Origin: an uncultured Pseudomonadota bacterium
Lineage (GTDB): Bacteria; Pseudomonadota; Gammaproteobacteria; Steroidobacterales; Steroidobacteraceae
DNA length: 32,052 nucleotides
NCBI GenBank assembly: GCA_903908265.1
Contig: CAIVRI010000121.1
Location: forward strand, 1-32,052
Reading direction: 5' to 3'
Part shown: positions 419 through 30,452 of the stretch, one piece after another
Position numbering within the stretch: the first letter of the stretch is position 1
How the letters are laid out: every line of letters begins with the position of its first letter
The notes under the pieces: generated by a model
The model's database searches: none
What the model was told of the DNA's origin: nothing
What the model saw: the letters and a program-made list of their open reading frames with translations, nothing else
Position numbers and translations under genes: made by a program

Positions 419-1216
419 GTGCCCTCTTCCTCTACCGACACGCTGCAACGCCGCGTGGTCATCGTGACCGGTGGCACCCGCGGGATTGGCCGAGAGGTTG
501 CCATGGCTTTTCTAGCCGCCGGCTGCGAGGTCGTCGTCTGCAGCCGCAACGCACCGGCTGACTTGCCCACGGTAGCGGACCGTACGGCCGTATTTGCGCC
601 CTGCGATGTGCGTAACCCAGAAGCCGTGCAGACCTTTGTCGACGGGGTCGCCGCGCTGTATGGACGCCTCGATGTGGTCGTCAACAACGCCGGCGGGTCG
701 CCGCGCGTCGATGCAGCAACTGCCTCACCCCGATTTTCTGCAGCGATCGTCGCCCTGAACTTGCTCGGGCCTCTGTATGTCGCACAGGCGGCCTATCGCT
801 GGATGGCACAACAAGCAACCGGCGGCAGCATCATCAACATTGCCAGCATCTCCGGCGTGCGGCCATCACCCGGCACCGCCGCCTATGGGGCAGCGAAAGC
901 AGGCCTACTGAGCCTGACCCGCAGTTTGGCGCAGGAATGGGGGCCTCGCGTACGCGTCAATGCCATCATCGGCGGCCTGATCGACACCGGCACTGCCGAC
1001 GCGACCTACGGCTCTGCCGCGGCGCGCGAACAACTGGCCGCAACGCTGCCGCTCAAACGCATGGGCACCGGCCAAGACATTGCAGCGACCGTCCTGTTCC
1101 TCGCCTCGCCTGCTGCGGCCTACATCAGCGGCGCCCAAATCGCAGTGGATGGGGGTGGCGAACGCCCACTGTTCCTCGACATCGTCGACGCCCATGCGGC
1201 AGCGCCACCGACCTGA
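419..1216 (+). CDS. SDR family oxidoreductase (Rv3549c-like), first gene of ring C/D operon
   Basis: This 265-residue classical short-chain dehydrogenase has the cofactor motif TGGTRGIG (residues 17-24), NNAGG (89-93), an active-site serine around 143-145 and Y156-x3-K160. It starts at GTG 419 behind GGAG (407-410). The NNAGGSP and RPSPGTAAYGAAKAG segments resemble the SDR encoded next to echA20 in the mycobacterial KstR2 regulon (Rv3549c as I recall it). Its substrate is not known to me; a hydroxyacyl-CoA or hydroxy-indane intermediate of HIP breakdown is an inference from context. It lies 18 bp upstream of ipdA and is the first gene behind the candidate promoter at 266-294. Confidence 0.8.
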   Translation: MPSSSTDTLQRRVVIVTGGTRGIGREVAMAFLAAGCEVVVCSRNAPADLPTVADRTAVFAPCDVRNPEAVQTFVDGVAALYGRLDVVVNNAGGSPRVDAATASPRFSAAIVALNLLGPLYVAQAAYRWMAQQATGGSIINIASISGVRPSPGTAAYGAAKAGLLSLTRSLAQEWGPRVRVNAIIGGLIDTGTADATYGSAAAREQLAATLPLKRMGTGQDIAATVLFLASPAAAYISGAQIAVDGGGERPLFLDIVDAHAAAPPT

Positions 1217-1234
1217 ACTGAGTACCCATAGACC

Positions 1235-2110
1235 ATGCTCGACAAGCGCCTCTCTATCGACGACATCGTCGGCCAACTGCGCGATGGCATGACCCTCGGC
1301 CTCGGCGGTTGGGCGACGCGCCGCAAACCGATGGCCTTAGTGCGGGCGATCGCGCGTTCCGGACTCAAAGATCTCACCGTAGTTTCCTACGGCGGCCCCG
1401 ATGTCGGTTTGCTCGCCGCGGCCGGCAAGATCAGCAAACTCATCTTTGCCTTTGTTTCCCTCGATCACTACCCTCTCGATCCGCACTTTCGTAGCGCACG
1501 ACAAAACGGCCTCGACGTACTCGAACTCGATGAAGGCCTGCTGCACTGGGGTCTGCGCGCCACGGCAATGGGCCTGCCATTCTTACCCACTCGCATTGGT
1601 CTAGGTACGGATATCGCGCGCCAATCCGCATTCCGCGCCATACGGAGTCCGTTCGACGACGGTGAGGAATTATTGGCGATGCCGGCGATCGCCCTCGATG
1701 TCGCCCTGCTGCACGTACACCGCTGCGACGCGCTCGGCAACAGTCTGACGCTGAGTCCCGACCCGTTCTTTGATGAACTGATGGCCAGAGCCGCACAAAA
1801 GGTATTCCTCACCACCGAGCAACTGGTCAGCACAGAGGCGCTCGGCATGGCCGAGAACTACCGCTGCAACTTATTCGAGCGCAGCCTCGTCACTGGCGTC
1901 GCGCTCGCCCGTTATGGTGCCCACCCGACCAGCGCTGCACCCGACTATCCGCTGGATTTGGCCCACCTCAAGACCTATGTGGACAGTGCCGCGTCCGCAG
2001 AAGCACTCGCGCAGTATCGCGCGCAGTACGTTGCGGTTGCCGACGAAGAGTATCTGACCGCGGTGGGCGGACCGGTTCGGATCGACGCCCTACCGACTGT
2101 GATTTACTGA
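1235..2110 (+). CDS. ipdA: COCHEA-CoA hydrolase alpha subunit, IpdA
   Basis: IpdA and IpdB form a class I CoA-transferase-fold heteromer that acts as a ring-opening hydrolase. It cleaves the remaining six-membered ring C of COCHEA-CoA to give an open-chain dioxo-decanedioyl-CoA. The 291-residue protein has the family signatures GWATRRKPMALVRAI (25-39), TVVSYGGPDVGLL (48-60) and LDEGLL (98-103). Glu100 sits where the catalytic glutamate of actinobacterial IpdA is expected. The start is ATG 1235, 18 bp after the SDR gene, and ipdB follows after 13 bp, as expected for two subunits of one enzyme. The resemblance to Rv3551 runs along most of the length. Confidence 0.92.
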   Translation: MLDKRLSIDDIVGQLRDGMTLGLGGWATRRKPMALVRAIARSGLKDLTVVSYGGPDVGLLAAAGKISKLIFAFVSLDHYPLDPHFRSARQNGLDVLELDEGLLHWGLRATAMGLPFLPTRIGLGTDIARQSAFRAIRSPFDDGEELLAMPAIALDVALLHVHRCDALGNSLTLSPDPFFDELMARAAQKVFLTTEQLVSTEALGMAENYRCNLFERSLVTGVALARYGAHPTSAAPDYPLDLAHLKTYVDSAASAEALAQYRAQYVAVADEEYLTAVGGPVRIDALPTVIY

Positions 2111-2123
2111 GCACGCCGCGCCG

Positions 2124-2933
2124 ATGAACAACACCGACTACTCGCTCGCTGAACTACTGATCTGCGCTGCTGCCGAAGCATGGCGCGATGATGGCGAACT
2201 GCTCGCCACCGGGATTGGACCATTGCCACGGCTAGCGGCAAGCTTGGCCAAAGACCTGATCAACCCAGCGCTGTTGATGACCGATGCTGAGGCTTTTGCG
2301 GTGACCGAACCAGTCCCGCCGGGACCCCGCAAAGGCTACGTCCCGTTGGTCGAGGGTTGGATGCCCTATGACCGCGTGTTCTCACTGCTCTGGTCGGGTC
2401 GGCGCCACTCCATGGTCGCGCCGGTACAGGTGGACCGCTTCGGCCAAGCCAACATCAGCGTGATCGGCAGCCATGCCAAGCCGAAGGCTGCGATGCTGGG
2501 CGCACGGGGTTTCCCCGGCAACTCGGTGCATCACCCGAACAGTTTTTTCCTACCCAGCCACAACGCCCGCGCGCTCGTCGCCGGCGAAGTCGACTTTGTC
2601 TGCGCTGCAGGATTCAATCCCGACCGTTACGTGAACGGCCGGCCGCCGCCTGGACTCGACTTGCGGCTGATTGTGACCGACCTGGCTATTCTGGACTTCG
2701 AAGGGCCAGATCACGCGATCCGTGTGCGCTCACTGCACCCCGGTGTCAGCTTCGAGCAAGTGCAGGACAACACGGGTTTTGCGCTTGTACGCCCGGAATT
2801 CCTGCTAACGACGCCTGCGCCGACCCCAATACACCTCGCCGCGATCGGTCGACTGGACCCGAACGGCGTGCGCCGTTCGGTCCTAAAAGGCGATCCCCCG
2901 GGAAATCCCGTCCAGAAAGGAGTTCCTTTGTGA
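2124..2933 (+). CDS. ipdB: COCHEA-CoA hydrolase beta subunit, IpdB
   Basis: This 269-residue partner of IpdA belongs to the CoA-transferase beta-subunit family. Recognisable segments are VEGWMPYDRVFSLLWSGRRH (about residues 76-95), QVDRFGQANIS, the glycine-rich RGFPGNSVHH and, near the C-terminus, FEGPDHAIRVRSLHPGVS, all matching Rv3552-type proteins. It is needed together with IpdA for hydrolytic opening of ring C. The last four bases, GTGA at 2930-2933, overlap the GTG start of the next gene, which suggests translational coupling. No strong ribosome-binding site precedes ATG 2124, so it too may be coupled to ipdA. Confidence 0.92.
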   Translation: MNNTDYSLAELLICAAAEAWRDDGELLATGIGPLPRLAASLAKDLINPALLMTDAEAFAVTEPVPPGPRKGYVPLVEGWMPYDRVFSLLWSGRRHSMVAPVQVDRFGQANISVIGSHAKPKAAMLGARGFPGNSVHHPNSFFLPSHNARALVAGEVDFVCAAGFNPDRYVNGRPPPGLDLRLIVTDLAILDFEGPDHAIRVRSLHPGVSFEQVQDNTGFALVRPEFLLTTPAPTPIHLAAIGRLDPNGVRRSVLKGDPPGNPVQKGVPL

Positions 2934-3826
2934 GCGACTTAGTCGAACCACGGCAGACGCCCGTCGAATACGAGACCGAGCAACCCGTTCGCTACGACGT
3001 GGAGGGTCCGATTGCCTGGATCACGCTGGACCGACCGCGTTACCACAACGCGCAAAACTCGCAGATGACCTATGCGCTAGACGCGGCATTCCGACGCGCC
3101 GTCGATGACGAGACCATCCGAGTGATCGTGCTGCGTGGTGAAGGCAAGCATTTCAGCGCCGGACACGACATCGGCACACCCGGCCGCGACTTGCACGAAA
3201 CCTTCGAACGCAAACACCTGCTGGCCGACCACACCAATAAGCCCGCCGCGGAATTGCTGTACACACGCGAGCAAGAGGTCTACCTCGGCATGTGCCGACG
3301 CTGGCGCGATATTCCCAAGCCCACCATCGCGATGGTCCATGGTGCCTGCATCGCCGGGGGACTGATGCTTGCTTGGGTCTGTGACTTGATCGTTGCCGCG
3401 GAGGACGCCTTCTTTCAAGACCCAGTCGGCCGAATGGGTATTCCCGGGGTCGAATATTTTGCACATGCCTTTGAGTTGCCACCCAGAGTCGCCAAGGAAT
3501 TTATCCTGCTAGGCGAACGCATGAGTGCGCAACGCGCCTATGCACTCGGTATGGTGAACCGTCTAGCGCCGCACGCAGAACTCGAGCAAACCGTGCGCAG
3601 CATGGCCATAGAACTGGCCTCGCGCCCGCGGCTCGGAAACTGGCTTACAAAGCAAGCGATCAACCACGTCGAAGACCTGCGCGGCAAACGCACCGCGATG
3701 GATGCCGTGTTTCACATGCACCATTTCGCCCATGCGCAGAATGATCTCGTCTCCGGCAACAGCATTGGCGGTCTCGATGCCCGCGCGATGGCTGCAGCCA
3801 ACAAAGCGGAAGCCGACAAGCGCTGA
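2930..3826 (+). CDS. Crotonase-superfamily enoyl-CoA hydratase-like protein
   Basis: This 298-residue crotonase-fold protein starts at GTG 2930 behind AAAGGAG (2916-2922). Oxyanion-hole segments HFSAGHD and HGACIAGG are intact. The two glutamates of classical enoyl-CoA hydratases are not obvious. The first (in GGGCELA) aligns with a hydrophobic residue in AGGLMLAW, and the second (in QPE) aligns with QDP, so the chemistry may differ from simple hydration. It resembles long crotonases found beside ipdAB in proteobacterial steroid clusters. One possible role is hydration of the enoyl-CoA formed from MOODA-CoA, but that is inference from position. EchA20 is a separate gene downstream. Confidence 0.8.
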   Translation: MSDLVEPRQTPVEYETEQPVRYDVEGPIAWITLDRPRYHNAQNSQMTYALDAAFRRAVDDETIRVIVLRGEGKHFSAGHDIGTPGRDLHETFERKHLLADHTNKPAAELLYTREQEVYLGMCRRWRDIPKPTIAMVHGACIAGGLMLAWVCDLIVAAEDAFFQDPVGRMGIPGVEYFAHAFELPPRVAKEFILLGERMSAQRAYALGMVNRLAPHAELEQTVRSMAIELASRPRLGNWLTKQAINHVEDLRGKRTAMDAVFHMHHFAHAQNDLVSGNSIGGLDARAMAAANKAEADKR

Positions 3827-3829
3827 GCC

Positions 3830-4930
3830 ATGGGAAATAGCCTCCTCCACACCCGACTCACCGAGCGTCTTGGCTGTCGCCACCCCATCATCCAGACCGC
3901 GATGGGTTGGATTGCAGAACCACCACTCGTTGCCGCAGTGTGTGACGCGGGCGGCTTTGGCTTTCTCGGCGCTGCCGTCATGACGCCTGCAGAACTGACC
4001 ATGAAGATCGCCGATTTGCGGGCACGGACAGCACAACCCTTTGGTGTGAATTTTCATATGTTCCAGCCGGGTGCCGCGGCGATTGTGGAACTGATCATCG
4101 CCAATCGAGCACAGATCCGAGCGGTTAGCTTTGGCCGCGGCCCAGACGCGCAAATCATCCGTCGCTTTCGTGACGCCGGCATCCTCTGCATCCCAACGGT
4201 CGGTGCGGTCAAGCACGCCCTTAAAATGGTTGAACTCGGCGTAGACATGATCACCGTACAAGGCGGCGAAGGCGGCGGCCATACCGGCTCTGTGGCCACA
4301 ACGATCCTTTTGCCGCAGGTACTCGATGCTGTAGATGTGCCCGTCATCGCAGCCGGCGGCTTTGCCGACGGGCGCGGTCTCGCAGCCGCCCTCGCCTATG
4401 GCGCCGCGGGCATTGCCATGGGGACCCGCTTTTTGCTGACCCAAGAAAGCCCAGTGCCTGCAGCGACCAAGCAACACTACCTCGCAGCCGGGACGGACCA
4501 GATCTTCGTCACCACGAAAATTGATGGCATGCCGCAACGCATGCTGCGCAATGCGCTGGCACAGCGCATCGATGCTGCCGGTCGCACTGCAATGGCGGCG
4601 CGTGCGCTGCACGCCGCTTGGAAACTGAAAGCGCAAACGGGTGCATCCTTCAAAGACCTTTACCGTGCAGCTCGGGGCATGACCGGGCACGGCGGCCTCA
4701 CATGGGGCCAAGCCCTGATGGCCGCGAGCGCACCCATGCTCATCCAAAAAGCCGTGGTCGAGGGATGTCCTGACGATGGACTGATGGCAACGGGCCTCGT
4801 GGCCGGGCGCCTGCGCGATGTCCCCACCTGTCTGGAACTGATCGACCGCATCATGACTGAGGCCACCACTCGGCTGACCGCCCTCGGACAGTTAGCCGAC
4901 GTACCCTTGGCGACGGCAGGAGACTACTAA
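3830..4930 (+). CDS. ipdC: FMN-dependent 5-OH-HIC-CoA pathway oxidoreductase, IpdC
   Basis: This 366-residue TIM-barrel flavoprotein belongs to the nitronate monooxygenase/2-nitropropane dioxygenase-like superfamily. The signature GGEGGGHTG (residues 145-153), the phosphate-binding AAGGFADGRGLA (174-185) and MGTRFLL (197-203) are clear. The N-terminal HPIIQTAMGWIAEPPLVAAV and the tail match mycobacterial IpdC (Rv3553) rather than true nitronate monooxygenases. IpdC works with IpdF on 5-OH-HIC-CoA to set up the unsaturated diketone that EchA20 hydrolyses. The stop overlaps the echA20 start by one base (TAATG at 4928-4932). Confidence 0.92.
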   Translation: MGNSLLHTRLTERLGCRHPIIQTAMGWIAEPPLVAAVCDAGGFGFLGAAVMTPAELTMKIADLRARTAQPFGVNFHMFQPGAAAIVELIIANRAQIRAVSFGRGPDAQIIRRFRDAGILCIPTVGAVKHALKMVELGVDMITVQGGEGGGHTGSVATTILLPQVLDAVDVPVIAAGGFADGRGLAAALAYGAAGIAMGTRFLLTQESPVPAATKQHYLAAGTDQIFVTTKIDGMPQRMLRNALAQRIDAAGRTAMAARALHAAWKLKAQTGASFKDLYRAARGMTGHGGLTWGQALMAASAPMLIQKAVVEGCPDDGLMATGLVAGRLRDVPTCLELIDRIMTEATTRLTALGQLADVPLATAGDY

Positions 4931-5682
4931 TGCCCATTACCCTCGAGATTCACGACCGCATCGCGCAGGTGATCTTCAATCATCCGCCCGTGAACGCCTT
5001 CGATACAGCCGGCTGGGAGTTGATCCCGCAGCTGATCGATGAGGCCGGTGCGCGTGATGACGTGCGCTGCGTTCTGATCCGCGCGGAGGGTCGCGGCTTC
5101 TGTGGCGGCGTCGACATCAAGGAAATGCAAGCGCATCCGGAACGCATAGTGCAACTCAATCGCGGCAATTTCTTGACCGCAAAAGCGGTGCGCGACTGCC
5201 CCATCCCAGTCGTCAGCGCACTGCATGGATTCGTCATTGGCGGTGGCGTCAACATAGCCGGTGCATCGGACGCCTTATTGGCTGCGGAAGGCACCTACTT
5301 TTCACTGCCCGAGATCGATCGCGGGGCCATGGGTGGTGCCGCTTTCATGCTGCGGATGTTCCCAGTACACAAGGTGCGGGCGGCCTTCTTTACCGGCGGC
5401 CGCGTCTCGGTCGATGAAGCCCATCGACTCGGCAGCATCGAGAAAGTAGTGCCTGCAGCACAACTGCTCGACGCGGCGGTTGCGTTTTGCGCGCTCATTG
5501 CCGCAAAAAGCCGAACCGCCTTAGTACTGGCGAAGCAAGCCCTCAACGGGCTCGATGCGACCGACCCCCTCGCCGGCTACAAGTTCGAGCAGGGATTTAC
5601 GCTGGAAATGTACTTGCATGCCGATAGCCAGAAGGCCAGAGATGCCTTCGTCATGGAAGGCGGCCAGAGCGCAAAATATTAG
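4930..5682 (+). CDS. echA20: Ring D-opening crotonase-family hydrolase, EchA20
   Basis: This 250-residue crotonase superfamily member cleaves the five-membered ring D of the indene-dione-carboxyl-CoA intermediate, yielding COCHEA-CoA. RAEGRGFCGGVDIKEMQ (51-67), FVIGGGVNIAG (101-111) and FSLPEIDRGAMGGAAFM (124-140) match mycobacterial EchA20 (Rv3550) closely. Glu128 in LPEI corresponds to the second glutamate of enoyl-CoA hydratases, while the first is replaced by Asn108, as fits a hydrolase. GGAG at 4919-4922, seven bases before ATG 4930, supports the start. It follows ipdC with a one-base overlap. Confidence 0.92.
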   Translation: MPITLEIHDRIAQVIFNHPPVNAFDTAGWELIPQLIDEAGARDDVRCVLIRAEGRGFCGGVDIKEMQAHPERIVQLNRGNFLTAKAVRDCPIPVVSALHGFVIGGGVNIAGASDALLAAEGTYFSLPEIDRGAMGGAAFMLRMFPVHKVRAAFFTGGRVSVDEAHRLGSIEKVVPAAQLLDAAVAFCALIAAKSRTALVLAKQALNGLDATDPLAGYKFEQGFTLEMYLHADSQKARDAFVMEGGQSAKY

Positions 5683-6851: not shown

Positions 6852-6860
6852 GGCCGCCGT

Positions 6861-12021: not shown

Positions 12022-12025
12022 GCAC

Positions 12026-12487: not shown

Positions 12488-12492
12488 AATCT

Positions 12493-12864
12493 ATGGCCAA
12501 TGCAGAACAGATGGTGAACGCCGTCCATGCCTATGTTGCCGCGTTTGACCGCGAAGCGGTGGACGCCATAGGCGCGCTGTATGCGGACGAGGCGACCGTC
12601 GAAGATCCAGTCGGCAATGGGTCGCTGGTGCGTGGTCGCGTAGCGATTCTCGCTTTTTACGCAGCGGCCATGAAAATGCGACCAAAACTGCAACTGCAAG
12701 GCCCAATCCGCATCTGCGCCAACTATGCCGTATTTGCGTTCACCGCCACCATCGGCGACGGCGAGCGATACATCGAGGTCATTGACACATTCCGTTTCGA
12801 CGACTCTGGAAAGATCGTCGAGATGCGCGCTTTTTGGGGCCCTTCGAACATGCACGGATTTTGA
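12493..12864 (+). CDS. ksi: Delta5-3-ketosteroid isomerase
   Basis: This 123-residue NTF2-fold protein aligns residue for residue with the N-terminus of Comamonas testosteroni ketosteroid isomerase (125 aa). It keeps Tyr14 (AYVAA), the catalytic base Asp38 in TVEDPVG, and an Asp at position 98 in VIDTFRF corresponding to Asp99. The ending [17 protein letters not shown] also fits. The enzyme moves the delta5 double bond of 3-oxo-delta5-steroids to delta4, a very early step in the cytoplasm. Its position among genes for the last rings is unexpected. GAGG at 12863-12866, which starts in its stop codon, serves the next gene. Confidence 0.92.
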
Positions 12865-12874
12865 GGAATTGACT

Positions 12875-18293: not shown

Positions 18294-19112
18294 TTACGCA
18301 AAGCGGATGTTGGCTGAGCCCACGCCATCCAACTCCAAACGGAAATGATCCCCCGGGTGCGCCGGTTCGAGCGGCACGAGCGATCCGGACAGAATGACGT
18401 CGCCCGCCGCTAAGGCAATGCCATATTGCCCCAACGTGTTAGCTAACCAGGCAACGGAGGCCAAGGGCGAGCCCTGCACTGCCGATCCTAAGCCTTCCGA
18501 CAACGGCTGGTCGTTTTTCCACACCCGAACCTTCAGTCTCGCAAGATCCAGAGGCCGCGGATCAACACGCGCATCGCCGAGTACGAAGACACCGCACGAG
18601 GCGTTATCTGCAATCGTGTCGACAATGCCAATGTTCCACAGGTCGATACGCGAGTCGACCACCTCAAAGCACGGCGCGATGGATGCCGTTGCCGCCAAGA
18701 CATCAGCCGGCGTGACACCGGGTCCCTGCAGACCACTGCGTAGCAACAGCGCGATCTCCGCTTCAGCACGCGGCTGAATCAAGTTGCCTGCGATGGATAC
18801 GGTCGCCCCATTGCTGATCCACATGCGATCCGTGAGGAAGCCAAAGTCGGGCTGATTGACCCCAAGCATGTCTTGCACCGCTTTGCTCGTCACACCAATC
18901 TTTTTGCCCACGACGCGCTCCCCGGATCGCTCACGCCGCTGCAGGATGCCTAATGACACCGCGTAGGCATCATCGATCGTCAACTCTAGGCCGCGCAGGC
19001 GTAACGGCGCCACCGTGCGCCCTTCGCGCAGAGCAACATATAACTCCTCCGAAAGCCTTTCGCGCAGCGCTGCGCGCGCGGTGCTATCCGAGTCCAATTG
19101 CCGGGATGACAT
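18294..19112 (-). CDS. hsaE: 2-hydroxyhexa-2,4-dienoate hydratase, HsaE (TesE)
   Basis: This 272-residue member of the fumarylacetoacetase-like/2-oxopent-4-enoate hydratase family carries GERVVGKKIGVTSKAVQ (64-80), QPDFGFLTD, IQPRAEAEIALLL with metal-binding glutamates, and FEVVDSRI. It hydrates the dienoate released from ring A by HsaD to 4-hydroxy-2-oxohexanoate, which HsaF cleaves. AAGGAG lies ten bases before ATG 19112. It heads the hsaE-SDR-hsaB operon and is divergent from hsaA across a 457-bp control region. Confidence 0.9.
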   Translation of the reverse strand: MSSRQLDSDSTARAALRERLSEELYVALREGRTVAPLRLRGLELTIDDAYAVSLGILQRRERSGERVVGKKIGVTSKAVQDMLGVNQPDFGFLTDRMWISNGATVSIAGNLIQPRAEAEIALLLRSGLQGPGVTPADVLAATASIAPCFEVVDSRIDLWNIGIVDTIADNASCGVFVLGDARVDPRPLDLARLKVRVWKNDQPLSEGLGSAVQGSPLASVAWLANTLGQYGIALAAGDVILSGSLVPLEPAHPGDHFRLELDGVGSANIRFA

Positions 19113-19433
19113 GATGACGAATCTCCTTTGCCTGATCGATCAGCGCCAAAACTATAAACGTCGGCACATCGCCCACCTGCGTCTGCGCTAGCGCCACACA
19201 GCGCGCTCCTCGATACGCACCCGAGCAGACGGCGATTTTGCCGAGGCTGCGCACCGGGGCGACGCACTGTTGCAGCGGCGGTCACGCCGATCCCATTCAG
19301 CACCCAAGGCCCGTCGGCCGTCGGACGGCAGGATGCCCGGGGCGGCCTGCGCGGCACGTGCTTCAGCCGAATAAGGCCGCTCAACAACAACTTATCGCAG
19401 CGCAATATGTTAGCTATCTAACAGCGAAAATAG

Positions 19434-19445
19434 TCCTATATAGGA
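19434..19445. promoter_or_regulatory. Perfect 12-bp palindrome, candidate operator
   Basis: TCCTATATAGGA is a perfect palindrome between divergent hsaE and hsaA. With flanks, AGTCCTATATAGG matches AGTCTTATATCGG at 30308-30320 upstream of hsaC in 11 of 13 positions. The upstream decamer AAAATAGTCC (19427-19436) recurs at 31304-31313 before the SDR at 30453-31256. This repetition suggests a common DNA-binding protein. Confidence 0.45.
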
Positions 19446-19495
19446 TTGTATGACGTTTCATGCGTAATTTAACAGACATAAAACTACGCGAATTT

Positions 19496-19525
19496 TTTCC
19501 AATTGCGGGCTGACGGCGGTATACT
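19496..19525 (+). promoter_or_regulatory. Candidate hsaA-kshA promoter
   Basis: TATACT (19520-19525) is a good -10 hexamer; TTTCCA (19496-19501), 18 bp upstream, is a moderate -35. Transcription would start near 19532, about 38 nt before the chosen hsaA start. TACGCGAATT just upstream resembles words at 27087 and 30288. Confidence 0.4.
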
Positions 19526-19569
19526 TTTTGTCCGTGGGCGCTGCCTCTGGCGCCACTGAGGGGGACTCG

Positions 19570-20769
19570 ATGGCGACCGTCATGCAAGAGAATTCTGCCG
19601 ACCTGATCACCGGCTTACTAGAGCGCGCTCGGGGCATGGTGCCGGCACTGAAGGCCCGGGCCGAAGCCGCCACTGCGGCGCGCGCACTGCCCGAGCAGAC
19701 CATCCGCGAGATGCACGAGGCAGGATTTTGGCGGGTACTCCAGCCACGCCGATACGGCGGCTACGAACTCCATCCCAGCGTCTTTTTCGATATCCAAATG
19801 ATCCTTGCTGAAGGTTGCATGTCGACCGCATGGGTCTATGGCGTGATGGGGGTCCATCCATTCCAACTTGCCCTATTCGACGCGCGCGCGCAGGACGCGG
19901 TCTGGAAGGCCGATCCTTCCACACTTGTCTCGTCGTCCTACCAACCAGTCGGCAAGGTCGAACGGGTGGAAGATGGCTTCGAGCTGTCTGGCCGCTGGGG
20001 CTTCTCCAGTGGCTGTGACCATGCCGACTGGGTGCTCCTCGGCTCACTGGTCATGCCAGAGACCCCGGGTGATGCGGTCGATATGCGCACTTTTCTCGTG
20101 CCACGGCACGATTACACCATCGTGCGTGACTGGAACGTCTTCGGTCTGCAGGCGACAGGAAGCCACGGCATCATTCTGGACAAAGCCTTCGTCCCGGAAT
20201 ACCGCACCCATCGGGCCGTGGATGGCTTTCTCGGCACAAACCCCGGCAATGCGGTCAACGACGCGCCGCTATATCGGATCCCGTGGGCGCAGATCTTTGT
20301 CCGCGCCGTGTCCACTGCCGCCATCGGCGCCGCGCAAGGCGCCCTCGACGCGTACCTCGCTGTGGTCAGCAAGCGCGTATCCACGAACACGGGCCGCGCG
20401 ACGCGAGTGGACCCCTTGGCGCTCAATGCGGCTGCGCGGTCGCAATCCACGATTCTTGAGCTCAAGACCGTATTGCACCGCAACATGGAAGAATTGATGC
20501 ACCACGTCCATGCAGGGCGAGAGATTCCCATGGTGGACCGAGTGCGCTACCGCTTCGAATCCTCTCAGGTCGTGCAGCGCTGCGCGGCGCTGGTAGACGG
20601 ACTCATGCCCTTGCTTGGCGGCCGAGCGATCTATATGGACAGCGCACTGGTGAAATACTGGCTCGATATCAACGCCGCACGCGCGCATATTGCCAATGAC
20701 CCGAATCTGGTCGCAACATCACTCGGGGCTATGTACGTGGGCGAAGGCGCACAAGAGTTCTTCGTCTGA
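19570..20769 (+). CDS. hsaA: 3-HSA monooxygenase oxygenase component, HsaA (TesA2)
   Basis: This 399-residue group D flavin monooxygenase has an acyl-CoA dehydrogenase fold. It shows RALPEQTIREMHEAGFWRVL, QPRRYGGYELHPSVFFD, SGRWGFSSGCDHADWVLLG and GLQATGSHGI, typical of HsaA/HpaB-like oxygenases of about 394 residues. With HsaB it hydroxylates 3-HSA to the catechol 3,4-DHSA. ATG 19570 is preferred to the upstream GTG 19528 because GAGGGGG (19558-19564) lies just before it and the protein then has the family length. kshA follows 27 bp downstream on the same strand. Confidence 0.9.
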   Translation: MATVMQENSADLITGLLERARGMVPALKARAEAATAARALPEQTIREMHEAGFWRVLQPRRYGGYELHPSVFFDIQMILAEGCMSTAWVYGVMGVHPFQLALFDARAQDAVWKADPSTLVSSSYQPVGKVERVEDGFELSGRWGFSSGCDHADWVLLGSLVMPETPGDAVDMRTFLVPRHDYTIVRDWNVFGLQATGSHGIILDKAFVPEYRTHRAVDGFLGTNPGNAVNDAPLYRIPWAQIFVRAVSTAAIGAAQGALDAYLAVVSKRVSTNTGRATRVDPLALNAAARSQSTILELKTVLHRNMEELMHHVHAGREIPMVDRVRYRFESSQVVQRCAALVDGLMPLLGGRAIYMDSALVKYWLDINAARAHIANDPNLVATSLGAMYVGEGAQEFFV

Positions 20770-20796
20770 CGGTTACCTGACTTGGAGACACGCAGA

Positions 20797-21900
20797 ATGG
20801 CGCTTACAGCGGATTATGCTATCGGCACCTTCACCTTCCCACGCGGCTGGTTCATGGTCGCTGAGTCTTCGGAGGTGACCCAGAAGCCGCTTGCAGTACG
20901 GTACTTCGGTCAGGATTTGGCGCTTTTTCGTGGCCATAGTGGCCGCGTCATCCTGCTCGACGCCTATTGCCCGCACATGGGCACCCACTTCGTAAAAAAT
21001 GCTACGTCTTACGTCATCCACGATGGCCAGGTCGAGGGGGACTCCTTACGCTGCCCTTACCACGCCTGGCGTTTTGGCCCGGACGGCAAATGCAATCACA
21101 TCCCCAACCATACGGGCAGCATCCCCACCGCCGCCCGGGTCCGCTCCTGGCCCCTGATTGAAGCCTTCGGTGCCGTGTTCGTCTGGCACGACCCGGAGGG
21201 CGGCGATCCGGAATGGGCAGCGCCTTCACTACCGGAGTATGGTCAGCCCGGATGGGTCCCTTGGACCTTCGATCACCTCGGCACCTTGGCCTGCCATCCG
21301 CAGGAGGTCATCGACAATATCGCCGACTATGCCCACCTCGGTCCGGTGCACGGCTCCACCGTCGAGTGGTACCGCAATGAATTTCACGGCCACCGCGCGG
21401 TGCAGTATCAGGGCGGCGGCCATCGCACGCTGGTTTCCACAGGCGGCGCCGCACCGACGCTCAGCACGGACACCACCTATCACGGCCCTGGCTTTCTGCT
21501 GTCCTACATGTCCGGCTTTTATGAATCGATCATCTACATTGCGCACACACCCGTCGATGATGGGTTGATCAAGGTTTGGCATGGCTTGTTGGTGAAGTGT
21601 GCGCAGGATGTCCCGACGGCCGAAGACATCACTAATGCGCGCAGTTATCAAGAAATGAGCCGCCTGGCTTTTGCGCAAGACTTCGACGTCTGGGCAAACA
21701 AGCGTCCTGCACAGACCATTCTGCAGACCAGCGCTGACGGCCCCTTTCATAAAGCCAGAATCTGGTACAAGCAGTTCTACAACCCAAGGGCCCAACGCGA
21801 GCAATTCCGCAAGCAAGTCGAAGGCACCGTCTATCAAGTGCCCTCGGTCCCGCCGCACCGGCCGACCGCGTGTCTCGACCGTACGCCGGACGGTACGTGA
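20797..21900 (+). CDS. kshA: 3-ketosteroid 9alpha-hydroxylase oxygenase, KshA
   Basis: This 367-residue Rieske non-haem iron oxygenase has Cys58-x-His60 and Cys86-x2-His89 for the [2Fe-2S] cluster and Asp177, His180 and His185 for the mononuclear iron (EVIDNIADYAHLGPVH). The later QDFDVWANK and ARIWYKQFY stretches match KshA proteins. Hydroxylation at C9 together with delta1-dehydrogenation opens ring B. ATG 20797 has GGAG at 20784-20787; the TTG at 20782 lies in that site and is rejected as a start. No KshB reductase is seen in the window. A related steroid Rieske specificity is possible. Confidence 0.85.
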   Translation: MALTADYAIGTFTFPRGWFMVAESSEVTQKPLAVRYFGQDLALFRGHSGRVILLDAYCPHMGTHFVKNATSYVIHDGQVEGDSLRCPYHAWRFGPDGKCNHIPNHTGSIPTAARVRSWPLIEAFGAVFVWHDPEGGDPEWAAPSLPEYGQPGWVPWTFDHLGTLACHPQEVIDNIADYAHLGPVHGSTVEWYRNEFHGHRAVQYQGGGHRTLVSTGGAAPTLSTDTTYHGPGFLLSYMSGFYESIIYIAHTPVDDGLIKVWHGLLVKCAQDVPTAEDITNARSYQEMSRLAFAQDFDVWANKRPAQTILQTSADGPFHKARIWYKQFYNPRAQREQFRKQVEGTVYQVPSVPPHRPTACLDRTPDGT

Positions 21901-21949
21901 CCCCTGTCCGCTGCTACGATGTGCGCACTAGCCAAAACCCATGACTGGG

Positions 21950-22720
21950 CTACTGTGCCGTAAATCCGCCATCAATCACCAATTCTGTGCCCGTCATATA
22001 ACGCGATTCATCGGAGGCAAGGAACAAAACGCCATTGGCGATATCGATCGGTTCCCCAAAAGCTCCGAGTGGAATCCCTGCGCTCAGCCGCGCTTTGAGC
22101 GACTCACTAAGATCTGGCGGCAGCGCTGCGAACGCATTTTCCACCATGGGTGTACGAATCACGCCTGGATGCACCGAATTAACACGAATGCGGTAGCCGT
22201 TCTTTGCACAATGCAGTGCAGCCGACTTAGTGAAGATACGCACCCCACCCTTACTGGCATTGTAGGCAGCCGTCATTGGGTCGCCGATGATGCCTTCGAT
22301 CGACGAAATATTAATAATCGAACCGCCATGAGACTTCATGGCCCGAATGGCCGTGCGCGTGCCCAGAAACACCGCCTCCAGATTGACGGCCTGACTACTA
22401 CGCCACGCTGCAAGCGTCGTGTCCTCAGCAGTACCGGTAGCAACAATACCTGCATTGTTGACCAGCACATCTAACTGCCCGAGTCGGCCGCAGACATCGC
22501 CGACGAGTTGTTCCCACCGCGCCTCATCCGTCACATCCTGATGCTGCGCCTCAGCCCGCCCACCCGCAGCGTGGATCGCCGCAACGACTCCTGTCACCGA
22601 CGCTAGCTGAATATCGGTGGCCACGACATAAGCACCCTCCTGCGCCAACCGAAGGGCCGTCGCCTCTCCAAGACCGGAGCCCGCACCGGTGACCAAGGCC
22701 ACTTTATTTGTCAGACGCAT
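21950..22720 (-). CDS. 3beta/17beta-hydroxysteroid dehydrogenase-like SDR
   Basis: This 256-residue classical SDR has ALVTGAGSGLGEATA near the N-terminus, VLVNNAGIV, SIINISSIEG, Y153-x3-K157 and RVNSVHPGVIRTPMV. Pattern and wording (AIRAMKSHGGSIIN, ALHCAKNGYRIRVNSVHPG) resemble Comamonas 3beta/17beta-hydroxysteroid dehydrogenase, so oxidation of a steroid 3- or 17-hydroxyl with NAD is likely. GGAGGAG lies just before a GTG-ATG pair; ATG 22720 has the better spacing. It is convergent with kshA across 49 bp, where TAGCC/GGCTA could form a weak hairpin. Confidence 0.8.
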   Translation of the reverse strand: MRLTNKVALVTGAGSGLGEATALRLAQEGAYVVATDIQLASVTGVVAAIHAAGGRAEAQHQDVTDEARWEQLVGDVCGRLGQLDVLVNNAGIVATGTAEDTTLAAWRSSQAVNLEAVFLGTRTAIRAMKSHGGSIINISSIEGIIGDPMTAAYNASKGGVRIFTKSAALHCAKNGYRIRVNSVHPGVIRTPMVENAFAALPPDLSESLKARLSAGIPLGAFGEPIDIANGVLFLASDESRYMTGTELVIDGGFTAQ

Positions 22721-23030
22721 CACGGCTCCTCCGGTTATATATGCGAGTAATAAATTGACAGGCTAGCGGCTTATTATCAATAGGGTTCGCTGCCAATCAA
22801 TCCTCAGGTGCGAGGCGAACTGACAGCGAGGCCGCCACACAGGATCTCATGGGACAAGCCACGTGGGGACGCACTCTCGGCTCGCCGGCAACACAGAAGG
22901 ATATGGACTGGCTAGAAGATGAGTGCAGCGCTAAGGACAGCCCTGCTCTGTCGAGCTGGCCTAGAACTGGCAACGAAAACTGACGCGCGCGCCGAAATAG
23001 AGTCGGCAGCCTACACAACAGGGGTAATCG
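22721..23030. other. Divergent intergenic region before 23031
   Basis: These 310 bp separate the minus-strand HSD from the plus-strand extended SDR gene. An AT-rich block at about 22735-22790 holds TAATAA (22748-22753) facing TTATTA, and TTGACA on the plus strand, but no well-spaced -10 follows. The rest, to 23030, shows no gene I can support; an 86-codon frame from 22919 overlaps the next gene out of frame and looks spurious. Confidence 0.5.
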
Positions 23031-26108: not shown

Positions 26109-26588
26109 TTAGGCCGGCGTTATTTTGGCCATGCGGTGGTCATACTTCAGTGTCTTGACCGCAATAGCGGTCTCGACGTGGCTGACGCCCGGTAGCGCTA
26201 GGATGCGGTTATTGGCCACCTGCGCAATTTCTTCCAAGGACTGAAACAAGCCTATGGCCAGCAAGTCGTAGCGGCCGAGCATACGGATCACGCAGGCAAT
26301 TTCCGGCATCGCCGCCAACTGCTCGCAGAGCGATTGCAACTCGGTCTGACTCGCCTCAATACCAATCAACACCACGCGCGGCGCCCCGACCACCAAGGTA
26401 TTGGTGACGGCCGTCAATCGAATGCAGTGCGTTTCTTCCAACCGGCGGATTCTGCCCCGGATGGTGCCCTCGGTCACCCCCAACTGGGTCGCAATACGGC
26501 GATTGCTAACCCGTGCATCCTGAGCTAACAACTCGATCAACTTATGATCCAAGTCATCGAGTACCGGCTTCTTCGTGTTGTTGATCAC
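26109..26588 (-). CDS. Lrp/AsnC-family regulator, second of pair
   Basis: This 159-residue protein has the AsnC-type winged helix near residues 10-60 (LDHKLIELLAQDARVSNRRI, QLGVTEGTIRGRIRRLEE) and a C-terminal RAM/ligand-binding domain with LGRYDLLAIGLF and PGVSHVET. It begins with GTG, overlapping the upstream regulator's stop as GTGA (26585-26588), so the two are translationally coupled and may form mixed oligomers. The effector is unknown; the neighbours suggest a steroid-derived CoA ester. It is convergent with the KstD-like gene across a 49-bp AT-rich gap. Confidence 0.88.
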   Translation of the reverse strand: MINNTKKPVLDDLDHKLIELLAQDARVSNRRIATQLGVTEGTIRGRIRRLEETHCIRLTAVTNTLVVGAPRVVLIGIEASQTELQSLCEQLAAMPEIACVIRMLGRYDLLAIGLFQSLEEIAQVANNRILALPGVSHVETAIAVKTLKYDHRMAKITPA

Positions 26589-27061
26589 ATTGGCACCCTG
26601 TCGAAGTTGTACTTCACAACATCAACGGCGAGACCGGCGGAAATACGCCGGATGCCAGGAATGTGCACAATCTCATTCTCTAGAAAATGTCGCAATTCAT
26701 CAAAATCCTTGACCGCCACGAGCAACTCCAGATCGCGCGCACCCGTTACCAGGTGAACGGAGAACACTGCCGGCAACTTTGCCAACTCTAGGCCCACCGC
26801 TTCGGCCGCCCGACCACCGACCTCGATGCCGACCGCGATCAGCACGTCGTATCCTAGTGCGGCAAAGTCCGTCACGGCCACAACGCGCAGGGCATTGGCA
26901 TCCTCCATGCGGCGAATGCGCGCACCGACGTTGGTCGGCGAGATTTTCAGTGCGCGCGCGATATCGCGATTGGTTTCACGGCCATGGGCCTTGAGCAGCG
27001 CCACAATGCGCTTGTCAGTTTCGTCGAGGACGATGCTGCCATCTGCGGGTTCAAAAGCCAT
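26585..27061 (-). CDS. Lrp/AsnC-family regulator, first of pair
   Basis: This 158-residue protein has LDETDKRIVALLKAHGRETN, an HTH at about residues 32-51 (DIARALKISPTNVGARIRRM) and a RAM domain with VTGARDLELLVAVKDF and PGIRRISAG. ATG 27061 has AGGA nine bases upstream. It is divergent from hsaG across 187 bp that contain palindromes and repeated words, so autoregulation and control of hsaG-hsaF are likely by usual Lrp-family habit. No TetR (KstR2) or LuxR (TesR) gene is seen in the window, making this pair the leading local regulator candidate. Confidence 0.88.
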   Translation of the reverse strand: MAFEPADGSIVLDETDKRIVALLKAHGRETNRDIARALKISPTNVGARIRRMEDANALRVVAVTDFAALGYDVLIAVGIEVGGRAAEAVGLELAKLPAVFSVHLVTGARDLELLVAVKDFDELRHFLENEIVHIPGIRRISAGLAVDVVKYNFDRVPM

Positions 27062-27085
27062 CTTGTGAAATCCTACCTTGCCGCT

Positions 27086-27105
27086 TTACGCGTAATAAGA
27101 CTTTA
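27086..27105. promoter_or_regulatory. Candidate operator: TTACGCGTAA palindrome plus ATAAGACTTTA
   Basis: TTACGCGTAA (27086-27095) is a perfect palindrome joined to ATAAGACTTTA (27095-27105). The latter recurs exactly, in reverse orientation, at 30304-30314 upstream of hsaC. TTTACGCG also recurs at 30285-30292. The element overlaps the -35 of the hsaG promoter candidate, as a repressor site would. Confidence 0.5.
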
Positions 27106-27130
27106 CCTTATTTACGCATTCGATTATAAA
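27102..27130 (+). promoter_or_regulatory. Candidate hsaG-hsaF promoter
   Basis: TTTACC (27102-27107) and TATAAA (27125-27130) are 17 bp apart. The spacer contains TTTACGCATTCGA, whose ACGCATTCGA core also occurs at 369-378 in the leader of the ring C/D operon. The predicted leader is about 110 nt. Confidence 0.45.
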
Positions 27131-27248
27131 AAGTCCCTCAGAAGCCCCTTGCGCGGATCCTTAGGGTCCGCCTATTGGAGCTACTCTCAGTCGGTCTGCG
27201 TGTATAGAACGCGCCAATCCGGCCGGAAGATCATCCCAAAGGCAGCCT

Positions 27249-28154
27249 ATGACCTCGATCAACGTCGCTCTCCTCGGTTCCGGCAACATCGGCACCGACC
27301 TGCTCATTAAAGCCTTGCGTAGCCGCTGGGTAAACCCCGTTTGGATGGTTGGCATCGATTCCCAATCCGAGGGACTCCAAACCGCCCACGCCCGTGGGCT
27401 CAAAATTACGGCCGATGGCGTCGACGGACTACTTCCCCACATCAAGGCCGATGGCATCCAACTCGCGTTCGACGCCACCTCCGCCTACGTCCATCCGGAG
27501 AACGCACGCAAATTACAGGCTTTAGGCGTCGTCGTCATCGACCTGACGCCCGCGGCGATCGGCCCGTTTTGCATACCCCCCGTCAACCTTGCCGAGCAAG
27601 TTGCCAAGGGTGCCATGAATGTCAATATGGTGACCTGCGGGGGTCAGGCCACCATCCCAATGGTAGCGGCCGTCAGCCGAGTCCAGCCAGTAGCCTATGG
27701 CGAGATCATCGCTACCGTCGCCTCGCGGTCGGCCGGTCCTGGCACCCGTAAGAATATCGACGAGTTCACACGCACCACCGCAACGGGCATCGAGACGGTA
27801 GGCGGAGCGCGCAAAGGCAAAGCCATCATCATCATGAATCCGGCGGAACCGCCGTTGATTATGCGCGATACCGTCCATTGCCTGACGGACAGCACACCAG
27901 ACCAAGCGAAAATAACGGCTTCAGTCCATGCAATGATTGCAGAGGTGCAGAAATATGTGCCCGGTTACCGACTGAAGAACGGGCCTGTCTTCGACGGCAA
28001 CCGCGTCTCCATTTATCTGGAGGTCGAGGGACTCGGCGACTATCTCCCCAAATATGCGGGCAACCTCGACATCATGACGGCCGCGGCGCTGCGCACCGCG
28101 GAGATGATCGCCGAGCAAATGATTCACGGCAGCTACGCTGCTCGCGCTTCCTGA
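27249..28154 (+). CDS. hsaG: Acylating propanal/acetaldehyde dehydrogenase, HsaG (TesF)
   Basis: This 301-residue CoA-acylating aldehyde dehydrogenase has the NAD motif [12 protein letters not shown] (8-19), FDATSAYVH (74-82) and catalytic Cys130 in [12 protein letters not shown]. It converts propanal channelled from the aldolase HsaF to propionyl-CoA. Length and motifs match BphJ/DmpF/HsaG. AAAGG at 27238-27242 precedes ATG 27249, and the aldolase gene starts 9 bp after its stop, the usual pairing for this channelling complex. Confidence 0.93.
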
Positions 28155-28163
28155 GGATTACCG

Positions 28164-29204
28164 ATGAACATCCACGGCCGCAAAGTCACCCTCCACGACA
28201 TGTGCCTGCGCGATGGCATGCATCCGAAGCGCCATCAACTCTCGCTCGAGCAGATGCGCCGCGTAGCCACCGCGCTAGATGCCGCCGGCGTGCCCCTCAT
28301 TGAAGTCACGCACGGTGACGGCTTAGGCGGCGCGTCCGTCAACTATGGGTTCCCGGCGCATAGCGACGAAGAATACCTCAGAGCGGTTGTCCCTTTGATG
28401 CAGCGGGCTAAGATTTCCGCCCTCCTCCTGCCGGGCATCGGCACTGTGGAGCATCTGTATTTGGCGCAAGACTGTGGTGTTTCGACCATCCGCATCGCCA
28501 CACACTGCACCGAAGCGGATGTCTCAGAGCAACACATTACGTTGGCCCGCAAGCTGGGGCTGGATACCGTTGGCTTCCTGATGATGGCGCACATGATCGA
28601 GCCGGCAGCGCTACTACAGCAAGCGCAATTGATGGAAAGTTACGGCGCAAACTGCATCTACTGCACCGACTCGGCCGGCTACATGCTCCCGGATGACGTC
28701 AGCGCCCGCATCAGCCTATTGCGCGAAAACCTGCGACCGGAAACAGAGTTGGGCTTCCACGGCCACCACAACATGGCAATGGGCATCGCCAATTCACTGG
28801 CCGCCGTAGCAGCAGGCGCCAATCGGATTGACGGCTCCGCAGCGGGACTAGGGGCAGGCGCGGGCAATACGCCCCTGGAAGTATTTGCTGCGGTGCTCGA
28901 TCGCATGGGGGCCCAGACCGGTGTTGATGTATTCCGGCTCATCGACGTCGCCGAAGATGTGGTGACGCCACTCATGGATCAACCGATCCGAGTGGATCGC
29001 GACTCGCTGATCATGGGCTACGCCGGCGTTTATTCGTCTTTCTTATTATTTGCGCAGCGTGCCGGCAAAAAATATGGCGTCTCGTCAGCCGACATTCTCG
29101 TCGAGATGGGCCGCATGAAGACCGTCGGCGGCCAGGAAGACCTGATCGAGGACGTCGCCATGAACCTCGCACGTGCGAAAAAGAGCGCCAAAGGCGCGCG
29201 CTGA
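28164..29204 (+). CDS. hsaF: 4-hydroxy-2-oxohexanoate/valerate aldolase, HsaF (TesG)
   Basis: This 346-residue HMG-CoA-lyase-like class II aldolase has the [11 protein letters not shown] motif (Arg16, Asp17, His20) and the metal-binding [11 protein letters not shown] with its two histidines, then [17 protein letters not shown]. It splits 4-hydroxy-2-oxohexanoate from ring A into pyruvate and propanal. GAGGA (28153-28157), overlapping the hsaG stop, precedes ATG 28164. It is convergent with hsaC; a hairpin lies between them. Confidence 0.93.
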
Positions 29205-29213
29205 GTCCTAGGT

Positions 29214-29242
29214 CGGCCTGGGGCCACGCATGCGTCAGGCCG
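29214..29242. terminator. Hairpin between convergent hsaF and hsaC
   Basis: CGGCCTG (29214-29220) and CAGGCCG (29236-29242) form a perfect 7-bp stem; the loop contains the palindrome ACGCATGCGT (29226-29235). It spans the hsaC stop and the end of the hsaF transcript. No T-run follows on either strand, so a bidirectional terminator is plausible but unproven. Confidence 0.45.
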
Positions 29243-30140
29243 GGGGCGTCCAGCGGTGACCCCAGAGATCGGGAATGAGGCTAGTGGTCGGCACCCAGGT
29301 CGACCAGTCCGGCTGTAGACCATAACAGCCAAACTCCAGATCGAAGCCGCCCGGAGTGCGGGCGTAGAACGACACCATGCCATCATTCGAATGGCGGCCA
29401 AGCGTCGAACTGATCGTCACGTTATCGGCCAGACAGCGATCCAAGGCATAGCCGACATCGTCCAAGCTCTTCGCTTCCAACATGATATGCACGCAGCCCG
29501 AAGGCACCGGGGCCCCCATCAAGGCCAAGCTGTGATGCCGCGGATTAGCCGCGTGCATGAAGTAAATACCGAGTTTTGGGTCCGTTGGATTTGGACTCAT
29601 TTGCAGCCACATCTGGTCGGAGTCTCCAAAACCCAGATGCTGCTGATAGAAAGCCCGTGTTCGCTCCAATTGTGGCGCCGGCAGTACTACGTGCCCCATG
29701 CCCAAATCGCCCGTCACAAAGCCGCTCAGGCCGTGCGGAGAGGCAAAAGGCGCATAGTCGAGGCTTCGACCCACATATAACTCGAGTGGATTTCCATCCG
29801 GATCGGTGCAGCGGCGCAGCAACCGCGCGGCCCGAAGGGCGGCGTCAGATGCATCGGCATCCACGACCGCAACACCTGCCGCACGCAGGCCCGCGCAACA
29901 CGCCTCAAGCGCCGCCTCATCGCGGAACTCCCAACCCGCTGCCAGAAAACGGTCTGCGGCACCCGGCTGAATGACGATACGAAATGGACGCTCATCGATC
30001 CGCAATCGCAGCGATCCGTCCGCGCCCGCTGGCGCCTCCATGAGCCCCAACGTACTCACGGCGAAGTGCCGCCACTGCGCAAGATCCGTGGACGAAACGA
30101 CAATGTAACCGAGTGCACTCGTAGCCATATTCAGACCCAT
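29235..30140 (-). CDS. hsaC: 3,4-DHSA extradiol dioxygenase, HsaC (TesB)
   Basis: This 301-residue type I (two-domain vicinal-oxygen-chelate) extradiol dioxygenase has iron ligands His150 (GMGHVVL), His202 or His203 (RHHSLAL) and Glu269 (GGFDLEFG). Length and architecture match BphC/HsaC, which opens aromatic ring A of 3,4-DHSA by meta cleavage to the substrate of HsaD. The start may be ATG 30140 or the in-frame ATG 30128 (MATSALGY); AGGA directly abuts the first ATG, so the second is possible. It is transcribed alone, from a region containing the repeated ATAAGACTTTA word. Confidence 0.92.
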   Translation of the reverse strand: MGLNMATSALGYIVVSSTDLAQWRHFAVSTLGLMEAPAGADGSLRLRIDERPFRIVIQPGAADRFLAAGWEFRDEAALEACCAGLRAAGVAVVDADASDAALRAARLLRRCTDPDGNPLELYVGRSLDYAPFASPHGLSGFVTGDLGMGHVVLPAPQLERTRAFYQQHLGFGDSDQMWLQMSPNPTDPKLGIYFMHAANPRHHSLALMGAPVPSGCVHIMLEAKSLDDVGYALDRCLADNVTISSTLGRHSNDGMVSFYARTPGGFDLEFGCYGLQPDWSTWVPTTSLIPDLWGHRWTPPA

Positions 30141-30303
30141 TCCTAAACTTTTGATTGATGGAATTCCAGCCTGTCCCTGGAGCGCGACCGCGCTGACACC
30201 AGCTCCCCGACCAGCCGATACCAGAACGAGACTAAGGACTTAAAATCCCAGTCGCAAGCATTTCCAACGTTTTTTCTCGTTATTTTTACGCGAAAGCAAC
30301 AAA

Positions 30304-30314
30304 TAAAGTCTTAT
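30304..30314 (-). promoter_or_regulatory. ATAAGACTTTA word upstream of hsaC
   Basis: On the minus strand this reads ATAAGACTTTA, identical to 27095-27105 upstream of hsaG and in the same orientation relative to the gene it precedes. In both places it is followed after about 8-10 bases by TTTNCGC. The shared layout supports common regulation of hsaC and hsaG-hsaF. Confidence 0.5.
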
Positions 30315-30320
30315 ATCGGT

Positions 30321-30336
30321 ACTTTCAGTTGAAAGT
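30321..30336. promoter_or_regulatory. Inverted repeat ACTTTCA-GT-TGAAAGT
   Basis: Two perfect 7-bp arms are separated by two bases, about 180 bp upstream of hsaC and 7 bp from the ATAAGACTTTA word. The size and symmetry fit a dimer-bound operator. I did not find a second full copy in the window. Confidence 0.45.
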
Positions 30337-30452
30337 GCATCGGCCGAAACGCAGGCATCCAGCGCCAGGGGCGCAGCCGCCCCCCCCAGTCACAAAGTCG
30401 GCGCGACGCTAGGCTGGCCCTAAGCGGGTAGCACGCGCGAGGCAGAGAGCCG

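Follow-up and report, generated by a model that had tools for sequence, protein, structure and literature searches.

A pair of Lrp/AsnC-type genes that overlap by four bases, called lrpA and lrpB here, very probably controls steroid catabolism through an operator of the form TGCGTAR-N16-YTACGCA that emerged from the comparison of loci across genomes. The explanation that we judge best as a whole, and likely to be right on these comparative grounds, is that of a coupled, obligate pair of Lrp proteins binding this fixed repeat at the promoters of steroid genes and at their own. The original prediction of a coupled Lrp pair controlling steroid genes has thus gained strong comparative support from the conservation of the pair, its linkage to steroid genes, and the dyad. 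The 32,052 nucleotides of the window make up the whole of contig G000:C121, one of 174 in a genome of 3.4 Mb that is 97.6% complete.

The gene pair and its steroid context

The pair consists of the following genes.

26585..27061, minus strand: lrpA-like, first gene of the pair; Lrp/AsnC regulator of 158 aa, ATG start
26109..26588, minus strand: lrpB-like, second gene of the pair; 159 aa, GTG start over the lrpA stop

The bases GTGA at 26585-26588 are common to the stop of lrpA and the start of lrpB. Both products carry an AsnC-type HTH and an Lrp ligand-binding (RAM) domain above the Pfam cut-offs (HTH_AsnC-type and AsnC_trans_reg), and neither reaches an NCBIfam equivalog cut-off. Two overlapping Lrp/AsnC genes divergent from hsaG-hsaF had been described from the sequence, and this is what we find, the pair lying on the minus strand back to back with 27249-28154 and 28164-29204. 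The two products are 29% identical over 142 residues. AlphaFold models, built from 11 rows and of moderate confidence, show the usual Lrp architecture, with three N-terminal helices followed by an alpha/beta domain for the lrpA product (pLDDT 71) and three helices followed by an alpha/beta domain for the lrpB product (pLDDT 80.6). The source genome has seven RAM-domain matches in total, two of which are the pair.

The protein families encoded in the region of the pair fit the 9,10-seco steroid pathway. They include CoA-transferase, crotonase, and nitronate-monooxygenase genes and a FadD3-type ligase, as well as HsaE/F/G-type meta-cleavage enzymes, an HsaC-like dioxygenase, a KshA oxygenase, and a KstD-like flavoprotein. 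We assigned the gene names (ipdA and hsaA, for instance) by family and position. The match to the HsaC model is below cut-off (289 versus 450 bits), and 2124-2933, named ipdB, matched no NCBIfam family.

The pair is the only regulator among the 31 window genes, of 33 listed, that were checked against Pfam or NCBIfam, a scan that covered the window apart from 6861-7916, 11987-12487, and the minus-strand open reading frame (ORF) 21950-22723. LuxR-type proteins were likewise absent from these 31 genes. By eye, the long minus-strand ORF at 21950-22723 resembles another short-chain dehydrogenase (SDR), and a plus-strand ORF in the stretch 21901-23030 has no Pfam match. As for a KstR2 homologue controlling the same promoters, which would have spoken against the original prediction, the one match in the genome to TetR_C_24, presumably the C-terminal domain of KstR2, scores 22.6 bits, below the cut-off of 26.4.

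Of 296 genomes of the order, 14 contain the first gene, and these same 14 contain the second. Among the loci from named genomes, which are the best 80 of 187 relatives that an lrpA profile retrieved, an lrpB homologue lies directly behind the lrpA homologue in 79, the exception being L122. The overlap of the lrpB start with the lrpA stop is exactly 4 nt in 70 of the 79 pairs, a recurrence that argues against chance. In a tree of 76 rows, made from every third pair plus the window, the 28 A proteins and the first members of other pairs form one clade with 100/100 support, separate from the B proteins and from the other Lrp proteins of the genome; several branches of this tree are long and the inner order of the B proteins is weak. 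The mirror-tree correlation of A and B is 0.93, a value that we set aside as proof of contact between them, for it largely reflects shared descent. Two metagenome bins have a further Lrp gene close to the pair, on the opposite strand (30% to lrpB; L036, 11103-11525; L037, 8147-8590).

The search for such pairs near steroid clusters in other genomes had been proposed. Steroid markers flank 54 of the 80 pair loci, and 38 of the 46 at which both flanks extend to near 10 kb, whereas none of 20 regions picked at random from related genomes has any; a locus was counted if it had one or more markers with an identity of at least 45%, or else two of hsaE/F/G. With KshA left out, markers are found at 31 of the 80 loci (35 with an extended marker set). 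A KshA homologue is the sole marker at 23 loci, and 14 of the 80 have none of the marker genes. All five KshA-like neighbors of the pair that were tested, four from sphingomonads and one from Caulobacter, contain the KshA_C domain (181-198 bits). One of three 50-kb sphingomonad plasmid control stretches also holds a KshA homologue, at 49%, and KshA homology by itself is a weak marker in sphingomonads.

In the 296 genomes, the pair and ipdA occur together in 12, the pair alone in 2, ipdA alone in 6, and neither in 276 (Fisher 2e-15, uncorrected for kinship). The pair is thus absent from 6 of the 18 ipdA genomes in this sample of the order. A class-level search found ipdA in no more than 5 of 369 genomes, which is not enough for broader statistics. 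Going by the record titles, carriers of the pair include Sphingomonadales, Caulobacter, Kordiimonadaceae, Lysobacterales, Microbulbifer, Steroidobacteraceae, and Pseudomonadales, and some metagenome bins seem to be titled incorrectly. Loci L060 and L049, titled Klebsiella pneumoniae and Janthinobacterium lividum, are odd for steroid clusters nearest to gammaproteobacterial bins and are perhaps mislabeled metagenome bins themselves.

Lrp/AsnC pairs are present in all three sphingomonad plasmid clusters that we opened, and some of these clusters hold them without adjoining ipd/hsa homologues. Two separate Lrp/AsnC pairs, at 11926-12968 and 19295-20334 and with no adjoining ipd/hsa homologues, lie in a single catabolic region of Novosphingobium aromaticivorans (pNL2; L025). 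Pairing of Lrp genes may therefore be a common layout in the catabolic clusters of sphingomonads.

A probable bipartite operator and its predicted mode of action

In the intergenic DNA of pair loci, TACGCA/TGCGTA ranks first of all 6-mers, with 160 occurrences observed versus 36 expected from shuffles; in control intergenic DNA, TACGCA occurs 12 times versus 11 expected. The test used 503 of 565 pair-locus intergenic regions (110 kb), those sharing 24-mers having been removed, and the regions came from a simple longest-ORF gene finder that misjudged parts of the window. Of 51 close half-site pairs, 33 are spaced 24 bp apart, and a further six, scored as 26, also come to 24 bp when GCGTA is taken as the half-site. 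The half-sites thereby combine into one fixed inverted repeat, TGCGTAR-N16-YTACGCA, or in its wider form TWTGCGTAR-N16-YTACGCAWA. Only distinct windows were used in listing the dyad sequences.

With at most one mismatch allowed (strict dyads), the pair loci contain 80 dyads in 1.32 Mb, distributed over 45 of the 80 loci, against 3 matches to the reversed pattern; these locus counts include some near-identical loci, and 35 of the 80 have no strict dyad. None was found in 0.69 Mb of other DNA, which comprised random related regions (398 kb), sphingomonad plasmid controls (150 kb), ipdA loci lacking a close pair (97 kb), and the surroundings of non-steroid pairs (49 kb). These ipdA loci number seven, and one of them (L045) stems from a genome, G243, that has a distant pair (38%). 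The dyad often abuts the pair itself.

A symmetric matrix was built from 75 non-redundant dyads, all of which fitted the strict pattern (at most one mismatch), so that its base frequencies (core G 0.93, T 0.97) lean to the pattern and its counts in pair loci are in-sample. It gave one match in 548 kb of controls, and the non-steroid pairs L023/L025 yielded one match over 18 bits, equal to the reversed control. The half-site in the matrix is TWTGCGTAAW, a near-palindrome with a constant asymmetry; in line with this, TACGCA leads the 6-mers and the symmetric TGCGCA and TACGTA are not among the best 25. In the window alone, a palindrome listing gave nothing above chance, and the half-site counts for TTACGCR and TTACGCGTAA were at chance (11 versus 7.9 expected and 9 versus 8.7), the signal becoming visible only across loci and as a dyad.

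The matrix finds three sites above 18 bits in the window, all intergenic, the next score being 8.5. These dyads, a single half-site, and genes near them, with those that we predict as targets marked as such, are as follows.

27089..27118, no strand: operator dyad CGCGTAATAAGACTTTACCTTATTTACGCA, between lrpA and hsaG; 31.2 bits
19461..19490, no strand: operator dyad TGCGTAATTTAACAGACATAAAACTACGCG, between hsaE and the hsaA-like gene 19528-20769; 32.2 bits
280..309, no strand: weaker operator dyad TTTGTAACGTATACTCATTTTGATTACGCA, preceding the SDR gene 419-1216, which itself lies before ipdAB; 23.1 bits
30286..30292, plus strand: single half-site TTACGCG, upstream of the hsaC-like gene 29235-30140
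27249..28154, plus strand: hsaG-like acetaldehyde dehydrogenase, predicted target; a dyad also precedes hsaG in locus L167
28164..29204, plus strand: hsaF-like 4-hydroxy-2-oxovalerate aldolase, predicted target
19528..20769, plus strand: hsaA-like flavin monooxygenase (Pfam Acyl-CoA_dh_2), predicted target; the hsaE/hsaA dyad is kept in relatives
18294..19112, minus strand: hsaE-like hydratase, divergent from hsaA, predicted target
419..5682, plus strand: SDR, ipdA, ipdB, echA20, nitronate-monooxygenase-like ipdC, and enoyl-CoA hydratase, predicted target operon
20782..21900, plus strand: kshA-like 3-ketosteroid 9alpha-hydroxylase oxygenase; KshA_C 203 bits
29235-30140: hsaC-like dioxygenase with the single half-site upstream

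Three regions had been put forward for DNA binding by the pair; 27062-27248 and 19390-19530 each contain a dyad, and 30261-30340 has the single half-site, with no dyad at that position (0.3 bits at 30263). In many sphingomonad loci, a kshA homologue comes after the pair, behind a dyad.

The mechanism that we favor starts from translational coupling, through which the lrpA and lrpB products would be made together and act as an obligate Lrp/AsnC transcription factor pair. The pair is predicted to bind TWTGCGTAR-N16-YTACGCAWA over or next to its own promoter and those of the operons for steroid ring degradation. A and B may associate as heterodimers, with one on each asymmetric half-site and hence two on a dyad, and a steroid-derived ligand might bind the RAM domains and relieve what would by default be repression.

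The positions of candidate promoters bear on this last step. Counting only genes within 250 nt, the median distance from dyad center to start codon is 82 nt. A -35 element starts within 10 nt before the dyad center in 11 of 40 gene-facing candidate promoters versus 3 of 23 on the reverse strand, a control that covered a shorter span, and the counts are not independent because related loci are included. For hsaG, a loose consensus scan gave the candidate promoter TTTACC-17-TATAAA, the -35-like hexamer of which starts 2 nt before the center of the 27089-27118 dyad; a standard promoter scan of 26900-27300 found none. Since -35-like hexamers lie at several dyad centers, that of hsaG included, we lean to repression by occlusion.

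Alternatively, the pair might activate the steroid genes when bound to its ligand and repress only itself, as regulators of the BkdR and PutR type within the Lrp family activate with ligand bound. Such a role would suit the divergent arrangement, in which the center of the dyad is 43 nt from lrpA and 145 nt from hsaG, and the candidate -35 of hsaA lies beyond the dyad, which leaves room for activation. Several dyads center on a -35-like hexamer, however, and on balance we regard activation as the less probable mode, albeit a serious contender.

A second question is whether A and B act on the same sites. Lrp proteins mostly work as homo-oligomers, and the tree places A and B in separate old lineages, so each could be a homodimer with sites of its own, the overlap merely coupling their expression. 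Yet the unbiased search returned one type of operator with an asymmetric core, and A and B never part in 296 genomes, which makes separate homodimers somewhat unlikely in our view. The constancy of the half-site asymmetry is the reason why we infer a heterodimer as the binding unit.

In its widest form, the favored reading would make an obligate LrpA-LrpB heteromer the master steroid regulator of Alpha- and Gammaproteobacteria, two heterodimers clamping the 30-bp dyad until a ring-degradation intermediate (e.g., a CoA thioester) releases them, with a regulon that extends from TonB-receptor uptake to ring C/D degradation. We offer this extension tentatively and would not yet count on it being right.

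The operator across genomes

The source genome (3.4 Mb) has two strict dyads, both in the window contig, which represents 0.9% of the genome, and four matches to the reversed pattern, so the number of strict dyads alone is not evidence. Similarly, G265 has 3 strict dyads versus 9 reversed matches genome-wide. In several genomes, strict dyads are not in excess of the reversed pattern, and only their place and quality stand out. With two mismatches allowed, the search of the source genome was undiscriminating (23 versus 20 reversed), 4 of the 23 falling in the window contig (0.9% of the genome).

Outside the window, the looser search found a dyad of 32.4 bits on another contig of the source genome (G000:C39 [L186], 6010-6039), within a short minus-strand ORF. 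A gene for a TonB-dependent receptor (6288-8603) begins 263 nt from the center of this dyad and is followed by a glyoxalase-fold gene, and the receptor is a candidate for steroid uptake. A dyad of 20.1 bits also adjoins a TonB receptor in Sphingobium sp. Chol11, a strain employed in bile-salt research (C9:13119; L188, 9920-9949); the two receptors are 28% identical. The best of the three strict dyads of Chol11 lies between hsaA and hsaC-ipdAB. All five strict dyads of Caulobacter sp. Root343 fall within ~16 kb on the contig of the pair, and five of the six in Sphingorhabdus contaminans fall within ~70 kb around it. The Lysobacterales and Microbulbifer genomes searched gave two matches each, none operator-like. 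In relatives, the dyad recurs at hsaE/hsaA, fadD3/SDR, hsaG, and hsaC-ipdAB.

Five of the 14 pair-bearing genomes lack a strict dyad (G106, G122, G281, G243, and G178), and G110 and G235 have single strict matches each that are unlike the others. At the hsaC-ipdAB promoters, which were chosen beforehand, weaker sites are present in G106 (15.5 bits), G122 (19.2 bits), and G110 (16.7 bits), none of which has a strict dyad that is AT-rich; as these genomes belong to one genus, the three count as one orthologous site. The best matrix scores in 17-20 kb of G281 and G178 are 11.4 and 10.4. Of 20 family members without the pair, seven have one or two strict dyads each, 10 in total.

Conceivably, the dyad is bound by a regulator encoded elsewhere, the Lrp pair being linked to steroid genes for another reason. 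We infer the tie between protein and DNA, and the 35 pair loci that lack a strict dyad would fit such a regulator. The distribution argues against it, in that the dyad follows the pair. A genome-wide search with the strict pattern found no dyad near ipdA in any of the eight ipdA genomes without the pair (G048, G091, G261, G269, G295, G103, G455, and G517; the ipdA match is weak in G103 and G269). Strict dyads are absent altogether from three of the eight and lie on another contig in three, and in the single-contig genomes the one nearest to ipdA is 1.8 Mb (G048) or 0.68 Mb (G517) away. On the ipd contig of G261, the best matrix score over 19.6 kb is -10, and the first 9 kb scores under 14. Conversely, G537, with the pair and two dyads on one contig, keeps a dyad before hsaC-ipdAB on another. 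The frequent position of the dyad next to the pair and the lack of a further regulator among the 31 scanned window genes also speak against a different binding protein, which we consider improbable. That the pair is instead a siroheme decarboxylase of the AhbA/AhbB type, an enzyme of two Lrp-like proteins and hence suggested by paralogues encoded side by side, has a negligible chance of being true given the steroid catabolism context and was rejected, as profile searches of solved structures (26 sequences each) gave only regulator-named chains at E <=1e-5.

Relation to known regulators

The best solved relatives of the pair are members of the Lrp/AsnC (feast/famine) family, to which PH1519, PH0140, and E. 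coli Lrp and AsnC belong and which shares with the pair the AsnC-type HTH and the RAM domain. The pair differs from this family in that two paralogues would form an obligate unit with a sharp bipartite operator. According to the available portion of one study, the sites of Lrp proteins in archaea are degenerate and lie two or three helical turns apart (PMC2995911), unlike the dyad, the 24-bp spacing of which is neither, a point against the favored explanation. The same portion provides a precedent for hetero-assembly within the family, the FL11-DM1 hetero-octamer of Pyrococcus (PMC2995911); DM1 is a stand-alone RAM domain, whereas both partners of the window pair have an HTH.

The named steroid regulators that appear in the available parts of the literature are KstR/KstR2, TeiR/TesR, HsdR, and EdcR (PMC8399759, PMC8700777, PMC6678751). 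KstR, KstR2, and EdcR are TetR repressors and TesR/TeiR are of the LuxR type, some of them with palindromic operators and autoregulation, according to the accessible text of one of these papers (PMC8700777). They too control steroid catabolic operons, with protein families and operators that differ from those of the pair. A review, as far as its text was at hand, calls the regulatory mechanisms of bile-acid degrading Proteobacteria largely unknown (PMC8399759), and the accessible part of a report on the testosterone cluster of Novosphingobium tardaugens states that no regulator was found nearby (PMC6895838).

The closest likeness comes from the bile-salt cluster of Sphingobium sp. Chol11, for which a 2026 paper lists two contiguous Lrp/AsnC genes, NCHOL11_RS15865/15860, a pair within a steroid cluster like that of the window (PMC12882949). 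The part of this paper available discusses them in terms of amino acid metabolism and gives no operator or regulon (PMC12882949). The claim that the pair would be a new control system thus stands in one respect, in that the open-access literature searched, as far as its texts were available, yielded no operator or regulon for such an Lrp pair and a single mention of one (PMC12882949); as to the paired genes themselves it has to be narrowed, given the pairs in three sphingomonad plasmid clusters and the one in the bile-salt cluster (PMC12882949). These comparisons point to the pair and its operator as a steroid control system that has hardly been studied so far.

For the many steroid degraders concerned, the pair and its operator amount to a concrete, testable regulon. 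The operator predicts regulon members that are not annotated as such, for instance TonB receptors, and together with the pair it offers parts for steroid biosensors. If true, Lrp regulators that consist of two obligate partners and recognize a sharp operator would widen our knowledge of the Lrp family.
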